NCBI RefSeq assembly: GCF_003233655.1
Contig: NZ_CP029829.1
Coordinates: forward strand, 1,436,978-1,500,977
Length of the DNA stretch: 64,000 nucleotides
Direction of reading: 5' to 3'
Origin: Azospirillum ramasamyi
GTDB taxonomy: Bacteria > Pseudomonadota > Alphaproteobacteria > Azospirillales > Azospirillaceae
Shown here: positions 9,437 through 42,369 of the stretch, piece by piece
Layout: every line of letters starts with the position of its first letter
How positions within the stretch are numbered: the stretch's first letter is position 1
The notes under the pieces: generated by a model
Told to the model about the DNA's origin: nothing
The model's database searches: none
The model's input: only the letters and a program-made list of their open reading frames with translations
Position numbers and translations under genes: made by a program

Positions 9437-10254
9437 CCGCGGACGGCGCATCAACCGGCATTGCACCGGGCAGGATGCGCGTGACCGTCCTCGGCTGCGG
9501 CGGGTCGCGCGGCGTTCCGGTGATCGCCGGGGTGCCGGGCGGCCATTGGGGCCGCTGCGATCCCGCCAATCCGAAGAACCGCCGCATGCGCCCCTCGGTG
9601 CTGGTGGAGCATGGCGCCGTGTCGGTTCTGGTCGACACCTCGCCCGACCTGCGGCAGCAGTTGCTGGACAGCGGCTGTGCGCGGCTGGACGCCGTGCTGT
9701 GGACGCACCAGCATGCCGACCACTGCCACGGCATCGACGAACTGCGCGAGATCTGCCGGCAGATGCATGCGCCGATCGACGCCTATGGCTGGGACGAGCA
9801 TCTGCGCGACATCGAAGCCCGCTTCCCCTACTGCTTCGATCCGCTGCCGGAAGGCTATCCCTTCTACCGCCCGGTGCTGAAGACGCATCGGATCGACGGC
9901 CCGTTCAGCGTGAAGGGGCTGGAAGTGACGCCGTTCGAGCAGGATCACGGCTATATGCGGACGGTGGGCTACCGCTTCGGCGGCTTCGCCTATTCGACCG
10001 ACGTGGTGCGGCTGGACGAGCGCGCCTTCGCGGCGCTGGCGGGAGTGGATACCTGGGTGGTCGATTGCGGACGGCTAGAGCCGCCGCATCCGGTGCACGC
10101 CCATCTGGCGCTGACGCTGGAATGGATCGAGCGGGTGCAGCCGCGGCGGGCCTATCTGACCCACATGGACAACAGCATGGACTACGACAGCCTGCGGCGG
10201 ATTTTGCCGGAGGGGGTCGAGCCGGCTTACGATGGGTTGACGATCAAGGTGTGA
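9433..10254 (+). CDS. Metallo-beta-lactamase-fold hydrolase (PhnP-like)
   Basis: This 273-residue protein belongs to the MBL-fold group that includes PhnP cyclic-phosphate phosphodiesterases and PqqB-like proteins. Visible motifs are LGCGGSRGVPV near the N-terminus, the metal-binding HxHxDH as THQHADHCHGID at about residue 97, and C-terminal YLTHMDNSMDYD. The ATG at 9433 overlaps the tatD stop, giving a likely three-gene operon. The substrate in this conserved metG-tatD context is not known, so I leave the symbol blank. The IS630 element begins one TA dinucleotide after its stop codon. Confidence 0.88.
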   Translation: MTADGASTGIAPGRMRVTVLGCGGSRGVPVIAGVPGGHWGRCDPANPKNRRMRPSVLVEHGAVSVLVDTSPDLRQQLLDSGCARLDAVLWTHQHADHCHGIDELREICRQMHAPIDAYGWDEHLRDIEARFPYCFDPLPEGYPFYRPVLKTHRIDGPFSVKGLEVTPFEQDHGYMRTVGYRFGGFAYSTDVVRLDERAFAALAGVDTWVVDCGRLEPPHPVHAHLALTLEWIERVQPRRAYLTHMDNSMDYDSLRRILPEGVEPAYDGLTIKV

Positions 10255-10256
10255 TA

Positions 10257-11420
10257 CCGCCGCGCCTAAGTATTGACACATGGGAGCCACGGGTAGCTTG
10301 TGAGGGAGCGTAGGCGCTCCGGTGTGGCGGTGAGGGCGTTCCAGGCGTCACAGCAGGCCTGGACGACGGCGTCGTAATCGTCCAGGAGCCGGTGGGACAG
10401 AAAGCGCTCGCGCAGGTACAGCCAGACGCGCTCGACCGGGTTCAGTTCGGGGCTATAGGGCGGCAGCGACACCAGCGTGATGTTGTCCGGCACGACCAGC
10501 GCCCGCGATCCATGCCAGCCGGCCTGGTCGAGCACGAGCACCGCCTGGACGTCCGGTTCCAGGCTCCGGGAGAAGCCGTCCAGGAACAGGCTCATGGCGG
10601 TGGTGGAGACGGTCGGCATGACCAGCGCGAAGTCGGCGCCGCTGGCCGGGCAGACGGCGGCGTAGAGGTAGACCGAGGTGAAGCGCTTGTCGCACAGCCC
10701 GGCGGGACGCTGCCCGCGCTCCCACCAGCGATGCGCGGTGCGGCCCTTTTGGCCGATGCGCGCTTCGTCCTGGAACCAGAGTTGGAGGCGCCGCCCAGGG
10801 TGCGCGGCCGCCGCAGCCTTCAGCGCTTCGCGCAGCCCCTTTTTTGGAAGGCGGCCTGGGCCTTGGCGTCGGACTGCGGGTGACGGGGCCGCGTCTTCTG
10901 CTTCGACAGGTTCAGCCGGCGCACGATGCGCGACAGGCTGGCCGGATGCAGCGTCTTGGCGAAGCGTTCGGCGATCACCTCGCACAGGATCGGCAAGGTC
11001 CACTCCACGCAGCCGTGCCGTTTGGGATCGGGGCCGGCGAGGATGATGGCCTTGAGCGTTGCCTGCTCCCCCTCGCTCAGCCATTCCGGTCGCCCGGGCA
11101 GCGGGCGATCATACAGCCCGGCGACGCCCTCGGCGTTGTAGCGCACCACCGCATCGCGCAACGCCTGACGGTCCATGCCGGCCAGCCGCGCCGCTTCCGC
11201 CCGGCTCACCCCGTCGAGCGCATGGGCGATGGCGAACATCCGCGCCGCCACCCGCCCTTTGCTCTCCCGCCGCGCCAAGGCGCGCAACTCGCCGGCACTC
11301 AAGTCTTCCCGGATCGGCAAGGCCGCTGGCATTCGCTCCTCCCCATCGCGATGGGGAATCGAATCACGGATCGCCGGCCTTGGGAATCCCTCTCAATGAG
11401 TCAGCCGCTCCGCTCGACGG
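10257..11420 (-). mobile_element. IS630-type insertion sequence, 1164 bp, TA duplication
   Basis: The element is bounded by TA at 10255-10256 and 11421-11422, the target duplication of IS630/Tc1-mariner elements. Reading inward from each TA, the left end and the reverse complement of the right end align without gaps: 17 of 27 positions agree, including TACCG, CG, GC and TGAC-x-CAT. The element carries a split transposase on the minus strand. The outer sequence also resembles the adjacent palindrome at 11426 and, more loosely, the hairpin of the 98-bp repeat. Confidence 0.88.
10266..11332 (-). CDS. IS630 family transposase, two frames joined by a -1 frameshift
   Basis: The upstream frame (11332 down to 10820) encodes the helix-turn-helix part (SRAEAARLAGMDRQALRDAV). 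The downstream frame, ending at 10266, encodes the DDE catalytic domain: FQDEARIGQKG, LVLDQAGWHGS and the terminal SLPPYSPELNPVERVW, which holds the catalytic Glu. The frames join at a run of six A followed by four G (minus strand, about 10836-10845); a -1 slip converts F-Q-K-R-G to F-Q-K-K-G-L-R, restoring the family sequence. This can be programmed frameshifting or transcriptional slippage, or a decay mutation. All three catalytic acidic motifs are intact. Confidence 0.88.
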
Positions 11421-11451
11421 TATGATACCGCCGAGCGTAAGTCCTGACTTA

Positions 11452-12303
11452 GAGTGCGTAACAAAACCGGCCAGGAACGGTTGGTAGGGGCATGGCAGCC
11501 CCTCTTGTTTCCGACGCCTTGTGGGCGATCATCGAACCGCTGATCCCGCCGGAGCCGCCCAAGCCAAAAGGCGGACGGCCCCGGTTGGACGATCGTGCGG
11601 CGCTGACCGGCATCCTATTCGTGCTGCGCACGGGTATTCCTTGGGAGCTTCTGCCGGTGGAGATGGGCTGCGGCTCGGGGATGACCTGCTGGCGGCGTCT
11701 GCACGAGTGGCATCGGGCTGGCGTGTGGGAACGGCTGCATCGTGTGCTGCTCGACCGGCTCGGCTATGCCAACGCCATCAACTGGGATCGTGCAGCGGTG
11801 GACAGCGCCAGCGTCCCGGCAAAAAGGGGGGTGAGGAGACCGGCCCGAACCCGACGGATCGCGGCAAGCCGGGCTCCAAGCGCCACATCCTCGTCGATGC
11901 TAACGGCATCCCGCTCGCCCTGAGGATCTCGCCAGCCAACCGGCACGACAGCAAGCTGCTGGAGGCGCTGGTCGATGCCGTGCCGGCGATCCGCCAGTGT
12001 GCGGGCCGGCCCCGGCGCCGCCCGGCCAAGCTGCACGCCGACAAGGGCTACGACTTTGCACACTGCCGGCAGGCGCTGCGCCAACGAGCGATCATTCCGC
12101 GGATCGCCCGGCGTGGCGTCGAGAGCAGCGAGCGTCTTGGCCGACACCGATGGGTGGTCGAGCGTACGCTCGCTTGGTTTGCCCGCTTCCGCCGCATCGC
12201 CGTCCGCTACGAACGGCGCGCCGACATCTTCACTGCCTTTCACCATATCGCGGCCAGCCTCATCTGCTGGCGCTTCGTCCAGAGATGGTTCTGTTAGGCG
12301 CTC
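11452..12303 (+). mobile_element. IS5 family (IS427-like) insertion sequence, 852 bp, TTA duplication
   Basis: Terminal inverted repeats are GAGTGCGTAACAAAACC at the left end (11452-11468) and GGTTCTGTTAGGCGCTC at the right end (12287-12303), with three mismatches. Both sides are flanked by TTA (11449-11451 and 12304-12306), the expected target duplication. Size and the two-frame transposase match the IS427 subgroup. It has inserted into the right arm of the palindrome described at 11426. Confidence 0.93.
11492..12297 (+). CDS. IS5 family transposase, two frames joined by a -1 frameshift
   Basis: The first frame (11492-11923) gives the N-terminal DUF4096-type domain, starting MAAPLVSDALWAIIEPLIPP, and the first catalytic Asp in RAAVDSASV. 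The second frame, ending at 12297, continues with KKGGEETGPNPTDRGKPGSK, the second Asp in HADKGYD and the Glu in HRWVVERTLAWF. They join at a run of five A and six G at 11821-11831, where a -1 slip restores the family sequence. Frameshifting at such a tract is normal in the IS427 group, so the element may be active. Confidence 0.92.
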
Positions 12304-12341
12304 TTATGCTCGGAGGTAAAGGCCGCGACTGCGGCCCCGCA

Positions 12342-12439
12342 GGCCCATGCCTGCGAAGGCAAGCGGCCGGACGGCCGCGCCCGCCGTCTGAGGGCGAGCG
12401 TAAAGTCTGATGTGTCAGAATTTACGCTCGATGATATGA
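12342..12439. repeat. 98-bp dispersed repeat, copy A
   Basis: This segment matches the reverse complement of 39342-39439 at 94 of 98 positions. It contains a GC-rich stretch (AAGCGGCCGGACGGCCGCGC) followed by a hairpin GAGCGTAAAGTCTGA-TGTG-TCAGAATTTACGCTC with one mismatch. It lies just downstream of the IS5 element and the split palindrome. No gene is encoded here. Confidence 0.92.
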
Positions 12440-12543: not shown

Positions 12544-14301
<1,758 letters not shown>

Positions 14302-39277: not shown

Positions 39278-39309
39278 AGCGCCGCGGCTACGGCCTGCGG
39301 CGCTTTTTT
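39278..39309 (+). terminator. Rho-independent terminator after sciP
   Basis: AGCGCCGC, loop GGCTACGGCCT, GCGGCGCT, followed by TTTTT: a canonical terminator 22 bp after the sciP stop. Confidence 0.9.
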
Positions 39310-39341: not shown

Positions 39342-39439
39342 TCATGTCATCGAGCGTAAAGTCTGACACATCAGACTTTACGCTCGCCCCCAGACGGCGG
39401 GCGCGGCCGTCCGGCCGCTTGCCTTCGCAGGAATGGGCC
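39342..39439. repeat. 98-bp dispersed repeat, copy B
   Basis: This is the reverse-complement match (94 of 98 bases) to 12342-12439. Its hairpin GAGCGTAAAGTCTGA-CACA-TCAGACTTTACGCTC is a perfect 15-bp stem at 39352-39385. Read on the minus strand, the repeat supplies the last 20 or so codons and the stop of the tetR gene; the stop TGA lies in the hairpin. Confidence 0.93.
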
Positions 39440-40030
39440 GGCGACTCTTCCACCGCAGGCCCCGTCGATCAGCGCCGCCGCCGCACTCGCCACCGCCCCA
39501 TTGCCCGGCCCCAGATCCAGCGCGCGGCCGGCGGCATAGGCGCCCTCCATCAGCAATTGCAGTTGCCCGGTCAGCCGGTCCGGATCCTCCGCGCCGGCGG
39601 CGGTTGCCAGCGCGCGCAGGCGGTCGCGGACCATGCGCTTATGGGTCATCGCCAGCGCGTGGGCGGGGTTGGCCGGATCGCGCAGTTCGGCGGCTGCGGT
39701 GGTGAAGGGGCAGCCCTGGAATTTGGGGTGGTCGATCCAGTGGCCGAGCGCCACGAACAGCGCCTTCATCTGCGCCCGCGGGTCGCCGGGATGGCGGGCG
39801 GTCACCCGGTCCCACCACGCCGCATGCTGGGCGATGTTGCGCTCCAGATAGGCGCAGACCAGCTCGTCCTTGGACGCGAAGTTGCGGTACAGGCTCATCT
39901 TCGCGACGCCGGAATTGGCGATGATCGTGTCGATGCCGACCGCGCGGATGCCCTCGCGGTAGAACAGTTCCGCCGCCGTATCGAGAATCCGCTCCCGCGC
40001 CGGCCGCCTGACCGTTGCCGTCTCCGTCAT
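39371..40030 (-). CDS. TetR/AcrR family transcriptional regulator with a repeat-derived C-terminal tail
   Basis: The 219-residue protein has an N-terminal TetR helix-turn-helix (residues 10-57: RERILDTAAELFYREGIRAV, IANSGVAKMSLYRNFASKDE). Its ligand-binding helices follow, with WWDRVTARHPGDPRAQMKAL and FQGCPFTTAAAELRDPANPA. The last residues, FLRRQAAGRPRPPSGGERKV, are encoded by the 98-bp repeat and are unlike TetR sequence, so the original end was probably lost or extended near residue 198. It probably represses itself and the divergent maoC gene through the palindromic operator between them. The ligand is unknown. Confidence 0.88.
   Translation of the reverse strand: MTETATVRRPARERILDTAAELFYREGIRAVGIDTIIANSGVAKMSLYRNFASKDELVCAYLERNIAQHAAWWDRVTARHPGDPRAQMKALFVALGHWIDHPKFQGCPFTTAAAELRDPANPAHALAMTHKRMVRDRLRALATAAGAEDPDRLTGQLQLLMEGAYAAGRALDLGPGNGAVASAAAALIDGACGGRVAGPFLRRQAAGRPRPPSGGERKV

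Positions 40031-40692: not shown

Positions 40693-42369
<1,677 letters not shown>

Follow-up and report, generated by a model that had tools for sequence, protein, structure and literature searches.

The C-terminus of the TetR regulator in the window (the whole stretch of 64,000 nucleotides that was analysed) is translated from a truncated copy of a mobile repeat. Very probably, this repeat is a MITE of Azospirillum which inserts at TNA targets and is moved in trans by an IS630 transposase, and which left the tail in TetR by way of a truncated copy. The repeat has inserted with duplication of its target, has spread in many copies, has ends in common with an IS element and is absent from the orthologous tetR loci. 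Repeats that donate tails and stop codons to proteins are known already; the family itself, its IS630 partner and the stop codon as duplicated target are new. This account of the tail needs no novel type of protein-coding repeat, and it links the MITE to a probable source of its enzyme within the same window.

The tail of TetR and the repeat that encodes it

Two copies of the repeat (I1), inverted relative to each other, 102 nt long and 95% identical, lie in the window at 12338-12439 and 39342-39443. The following features surround the copy at tetR:

39342..39443, minus strand: MITE copy 1, a right-hand remnant with hairpins 3-5 and without hairpins 1 and 2, equivalent to consensus positions 60-162, with no left end
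39342-39344: right-hand TNA of MITE copy 1, TCA on the plus strand and TGA on the minus strand
39371..40030, minus strand: tetR, TetR family regulator of 219 aa, with Pfam TetR_N and with TetR_C_13 at 26.2 bits, slightly under the cut-off of 27
39374..39442, minus strand: the 23 MITE-derived codons of tetR, encoding AGPFLRRQAAGRPRPPSGGERKV; the stop TGA at 39371-39373 lies within hairpin 5
39279..39309, plus strand: terminator-like GC-rich hairpin with a T run, 3' of the DUF1153 gene, between the convergent DUF1153 and tetR genes

The original prediction, that the tetR stop codon lies inside a hairpin of the repeat and that the C-terminal codons come from it, is borne out: in the alignment with the element, the final 23 residues of the ORF are repeat-encoded, the TGA sits at the apex of hairpin 5 (the large hairpin of 16 bp), and tetR coding sequence lies upstream of MITE copy 1. 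The 16 best relatives of this TetR are from Azospirillum in every case. Read to their stop codons (loci L031-L046), 16 of 16 orthologues have neither a match to the repeat in the locus nor the tail; the conserved LIDxAC motif is followed by at most 20 residues to the end, and these short tails are unrelated. Orthologues sharing the C-terminal residues while lacking the repeat, which had been named beforehand as evidence against a repeat origin, thus did not turn up among them. In the AlphaFold model of TetR (24 sequences) the core is confident, and pLDDT is below 50 at residues 195-205, 207-209 and 211-219. A dispensable C-terminus, on which such a tail would be tolerated, is consistent with the variable tails of the orthologues and with this low predicted confidence.

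At the other copy, at 12342, nearly the same peptide (LRRQAAGRPRPPSEGERKV) can indeed be read, as had been predicted, but its use as an argument for a tolerated tail did not survive. The open frame that carries it (11904-12410) overlaps an IS transposase (matched at 11833-12261) in a different frame. The agreement in frame therefore says no more than the 95% identity of the DNA and is no evidence for a tolerated protein tail.

Alignment of the copies with their flanks reveals a longer unit, of which the tetR copy is therefore a truncated remnant. The full unit has 156 bp and five hairpins, two long terminal and three small GC-rich inner ones, in the order hairpin 1 (beginning with TACCGCCGAGCGTAAGT), two small GC-rich hairpins, a third GC-rich palindrome and hairpin 5 (CGAGCGTAAAGTCTGA...TCAGACTTTACGCTCG); the element ends in GATGATA. 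Its insertion can be followed at the stop codon of mmsB in A. argentinense Az39, where the sequence reads CGGCG-TGA-element-TGA-AAGGG. The empty site, CGGCG-TGA-AAGGG, is present in three of the three other strains aligned (MTCC4035, 2020WEIHUA_K and MTCC4038), and occupied and empty sites differ by 159 bp, that is 156 + 3. Insertion therefore duplicates a 3-bp TNA, and together with the number of copies this bears out the mobility that had been proposed for the repeat. Among the 27 copies with two ends in the genome of the window, the TNAs on both sides are equal in 19, with pairs of TAA, TCA and TTA included, and unequal in eight (seven by one base, one by two).

This genome and A. lipoferum 4B share a copy at paaK (L150, L189) that B510 and A. 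oryzae KACC 14407 do not have, which suggests that part of the copies are old and were inherited. The absence from the latter two is consistent with an empty site, but the paaK copy of A. lipoferum 4B was not accepted as a further proof of insertion, because its right TNA is AGA and the gap was misplaced in the alignment.

In the genome, 64 copies were tabulated from searches with the entire element, with either side of it and with a core pattern. The core pattern of 29 bases, with up to three mismatches, gave 49 matches compared with 0 for the reversed control. The profile search gave 138 matches; 59 were retained as primary copies, 79 were excluded as palindrome self-matches, second halves, overlaps or weak matches, and five copies were added later. 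At least six more partial or solo copies (L264, L265, L290, L293, L296, L307) lie outside the tables, and all copy numbers are lower bounds, with 40 candidates scored per search of this genome and 19-20 per genus genome. Several copies on separate replicons are identical over their full length, so the family has recently been active. Across the genus, matches occur in 22 of 45 genomes including this one, with at least one to four in 20 others and at least 12 in one, and 23 have none among the up to 19 candidates scored per genome. Plasmids of A. argentinense, A. brasilense, A. lipoferum 4B and A. oryzae carry matches, and one weak match was found in Niveispirillum. An Rfam search of the window returned no known RNA family at the gathering threshold. 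Short, non-coding and multi-copy, with inverted ends (18 of 24 bases identical between the left and right consensus ends) and a target duplication, the repeat qualifies as a MITE, a non-autonomous DNA transposon.

For tetR, the simplest history would begin with a MITE copy inserting downstream of the gene, between tetR and the convergent DUF1153 gene. A deletion would then have taken the left part of the element together with the original 3' end of tetR and its stop, so that translation would continue into the remnant and terminate 23 codons on, at the TGA of the last hairpin. The resulting tail would be disordered and probably harmless, and we infer its neutrality. A full element next to an intact tetR was found in no genome examined.

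An IS630-family element as candidate mobiliser

The second MITE copy lies next to an IS630-family element and is split by another IS:

9475..10254, plus strand: metallo-beta-lactamase-fold gene, with its stop TGA (10252-10254) forming the IS630 element's target duplication on the left
10255..11422, minus strand: IS630-family IS of 1168 bp, with ends TACCGCCG.../...CGACGGTA and TGA on both sides (10252-10254, 11423-11425)
10820..11332, minus strand: N-terminal ORF of the IS630 transposase, with winged helix-turn-helix domains
10266..11084, minus strand: C-terminal ORF of the IS630 transposase, with DDE_3, overlapping the N-terminal ORF
11426..11451, plus strand: left 26 bases of MITE copy 2, comprising the left end and the first arm of hairpin 1, with TGA 11423-11425 before it
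11452..12303, plus strand: IS5-like IS of 852 bp with a DDE_Tnp_1 transposase, in hairpin 1 of MITE copy 2, with TTA at both junctions
12304..12436, plus strand: remainder of MITE copy 2, beyond the IS5-like element that splits the copy, followed by TGA 12437-12439

The IS630 element and the second MITE copy adjoin each other with one TGA common to both. Against NCBIfam transpos_IS630, the C-terminal ORF scores 138 bits (cut-off 100) and the N-terminal ORF 92 bits, under the cut-off; Pfam finds DDE_3 and winged helix-turn-helix domains on the two ORFs. On four A. argentinense plasmids, the annotation of relatives gives a single CDS of 1067 nt for an IS630 transposase. An A6G run lies within the ORF overlap (10820-11084) and suggests, on sequence grounds, programmed frameshifting of the split transposase.

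When the 24-base left end of the MITE was compared with all 127,954 window positions on both strands, at least 17 of 24 bases agreed at just five places, namely the two IS630 ends (19 and 18 of 24) and the three MITE ends present (23, 19 and 17 of 24). The consensus right end of the MITE fits less well, agreeing at 15-17 of 24 bases with the better-matching IS ends and at 13 with one, and is nearer to the left end of the MITE (18 of 24). MITE and IS630 element also duplicate the same kind of target. The TNAs match in six of the eight IS630 copies with both ends readable (TGA in the window copy, L312, L313 and L314, TAA in L280, TCA in L316) and differ in two (L315, TTA/TGA; L317, TAA/TCA, itself interrupted), a count that leaves out L286, L310 and L318, which have no two readable ends or are too divergent. 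IS630 elements usually duplicate TA, so the 3-bp TNA duplication is a departure for an element of this family.

This genome yielded two long IS630 copies. One is the window copy, the sole full-length one detected; from the other, an IS5-like element has cut off the left 11 bases. It was a degenerate left-end pattern that led to the IS630 element, by matching two genomes with a transposase gene behind a MITE-like end. Searches with the left and the right end at E-value cut-offs gave no transposase-bearing copy among the matches inspected, which for one left-end run were part of the loci. From the like ends and the shared TNA duplication, the IS630 element of the window appears to be the likely source of the transposase that would move the MITE in trans. 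The IS5-like element of the window was rejected as mobiliser, as its ends (GAGTGCG.../...GGCGCTC) are unlike those of the MITE and its junctions are TTA/TAA-like.

Stop codons and convergent gaps

Of the 57 copies with an end preserved, 28 have a TNA that is the exact stop codon of a neighbouring gene, at the left end for genes running into the element and at the right end (TCA or TTA) for genes on the opposite strand. The background sample covers the window and a further 400 kb of this genome; of its TNAs that are intergenic or stops, 339 of 2161 (15.7%) are stop codons, so that the excess is highly significant (p 4e-9). These matches depend on gene calls from a codon-usage model that was trained on the window and applied to every locus; there is one independently annotated case, at mmsB. 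Outside the tables, L290, L293 and L307 also lie on stop codons, and so does L196 when judged by eye, which is not among the 28. Besides, 41 of the 64 copies are located in convergent gaps, compared with 63 of 381 gaps overall (p 3e-14), and three in divergent gaps, compared with 61 of 381 (p 0.02).

Survival after insertion at any TNA may account for this pattern. With TGA or TAA as target, the duplication restores the stop and leaves the protein unchanged, and many copies are kept at such stops and between convergent genes, where neither a protein nor a promoter suffers. This amounts to a simple rule: a mobile element whose duplicated TNA is a stop codon can lie right next to a gene and leave it undamaged.

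Alternatively, the transposase may actively target stop codons or gene ends, using them through its 3-bp TNA target as a docking site at which the duplication regenerates the stop and elements can stack. If so, the transposon would have a class of sites at gene ends where insertion costs the host protein nothing. We consider this rather unlikely. It would agree with the position of the window IS630 copy, itself on a stop codon, and with elements stacked on one TGA (IS630 then MITE; L005 then L029). The share of stop codons is also above background within convergent gaps (22 of 38 copies compared with 37.5%, p 0.008) and in the remaining copies pooled (6 of 19 compared with 12.3%, p 0.02). However, co-directional copies alone have no significant excess (6 of 17 compared with 19.2%, p ~0.1), and TNA specificity by itself permits TGA and TAA. 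Young copies, at least 97% identical to their nearest neighbour, match a stop in 3 of 14 cases, which is near background, whereas older ones do so in 25 of 43 (p 0.03). This contrast depends on the cut-off, with p 0.04, 0.09 and 0.60 at 96, 95 and 93%, and at the laxest of these the young copies, with 14 of 31, are above background. As young copies have little stop bias, survival rather than targeting is weakly favoured.

The position between convergent genes could also mean that the element persists because it serves as a 3' structure, a terminator or mRNA stabiliser whose hairpins are under selection, to which we give a small chance. In an alignment of 20 full copies, standard pairs make up 95.7% of the paired cells, and two-sided changes occur in hairpins 1 and 5 and are confined to them, the three inner hairpins being nearly invariant. 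Ten pairs have such changes compared with 5.5 in shuffles, and 3 of 500 shuffles reach that number, but related sequences may beat shuffles of this kind without selection. Two-sided changes can also arise by template switching in quasi-palindromes or through end recognition. Moreover, the consensus is without a T run after hairpin 5, about half of the genus genomes (23 of 45) have no match, and enrichment between convergent genes is expected of parasites too, as stated in the part of PMC3049150 drawn on here.

A much poorer fit is a coding palindrome of the kind known from Rickettsia as RPE, which would insert in frame in genes with its open frame kept as a tolerated peptide; this likeness, raised in the original prediction, found no support, and we regard it as very improbable. 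TetR does gain 23 residues, and two of the six consensus frames are fully open, which would make in-frame insertion possible, but the other four contain stops. Insertion in frame inside genes was not seen: a single copy (L009, 1 of 64) lies in a called ORF, which scores 0.073 per codon compared with a window median of 0.458 and is thus probably spurious. Genes read at least eight codons, stop included, into 3 of the 64 copies (tetR, and eight codons each at L007 and L160). In the other 61 at most four codons are added, such as two to four including TAA at L133, L016, L157 and L136 and one to three at L023, L021 and L147, and in 28 of the 57 copies with an end the host stop is exactly in place. 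Protein tails are a by-product of the MITE. For annotation this calls for caution, since the C-terminus of TetR, and probably those of two other proteins, is element sequence.

Finally, a REP/RAYT element, for whose spread a tyrosine (Y1) transposase is responsible, would likewise be palindromic, extragenic and at gene ends and might explain solo hairpins of ~40 bp (L148, L196, L296, L307), but is almost certainly not at hand given the composite body of 156 bp, the inverted-repeat ends in common with a DDE-type IS630 and the clean 3-bp target duplication, where REP/RAYT elements have none.

Related repeats and further observations

To our knowledge, GTAG REPs are likewise without target duplication. 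According to the sections of PMC3733652 used here, their termini often provide a stop to flanking genes, and they lie mainly between convergent or unidirectional genes. They have 20-40 bp and a GTAG tag and are, in these sections, not tied to IS630, whereas the Azospirillum MITE has 156 bp and IS630-like ends.

One parallel concerns the mobiliser. The RUP repeats of S. pneumoniae have ends like those of IS630-Spn1, and repeats of that genome are enriched between convergent genes (excerpts of PMC3049150 and PMC2229807); RUP has 107 bp and inserts at TA (PMC2229807, in excerpt). The Azospirillum MITE is also short and non-autonomous, has ends in common with an IS630-family IS resident in the same genome and is enriched in convergent gaps. 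In contrast to RUP, it is 156 bp long and GC-rich, with five hairpins, and the TA duplication is replaced by a 3-bp TNA, often a stop codon, in the MITE and in six of eight IS copies.

Gene ends are also shaped by BOX of S. pneumoniae, which is enriched between convergent genes and, of the 58 CDSs that it overlaps, supplies the stop of 36 from a position at their very 3' end (PMC3049150, in excerpt). There the stop comes from the repeat itself, whereas at the Azospirillum MITE it is often the duplicated target, and truncated copies are the main donors of codons. At the amidase gene ECA3499, an ERIC/RU-1 MITE removed the stop and gave a C-terminal tail past the conserved domain (Delihas 2007; PMC2759123, in excerpt). 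That enterobacterial repeat is full-length and downstream, whereas the TetR tail comes from a truncated remnant of another repeat. RPE is described in frame inside genes, in 19 reading frames (PMC2229807, in excerpt). Like the MITE it is a palindromic mobile repeat that adds protein residues, but the Azospirillum MITE avoids gene interiors. Further sources on such repeats, likewise used in excerpt, are PMC2817692 and the review PMC10969869. Among the papers listed in searches of an open-access library, none dealt with this Azospirillum element, with an IS630 that duplicates TNA or with a duplicated target in use as stop codon.

Several solo hairpins of ~40 bp (L148, L196, L296, L307, L290, L194) comprise barely more than the MITE ends and are mostly TNA-flanked on both sides; perhaps they are the smallest mobile unit. 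At two loci of one genome (L288 and L279 in G002) a different short element has nearly the same left end (TACCGCCGAGC), and at L288 the right end also matches, which makes a second MITE family of the same IS630 element possible.

The IS5-like element of 852 bp is present in 15 full copies among the fetched loci, two of them inside MITE copies and one within 9 bases of a MITE fragment (L254, L257, L265; p 2e-6 under random placement), and it may insert preferentially in MITE hairpins. The window also contains a direct repeat, 12568-12867 and 40708-41007, which is 79% identical and lies within two minus-strand genes; the product of the gene at 40693-41781 (minus strand) resembles what we take to be a periplasmic substrate-binding protein.
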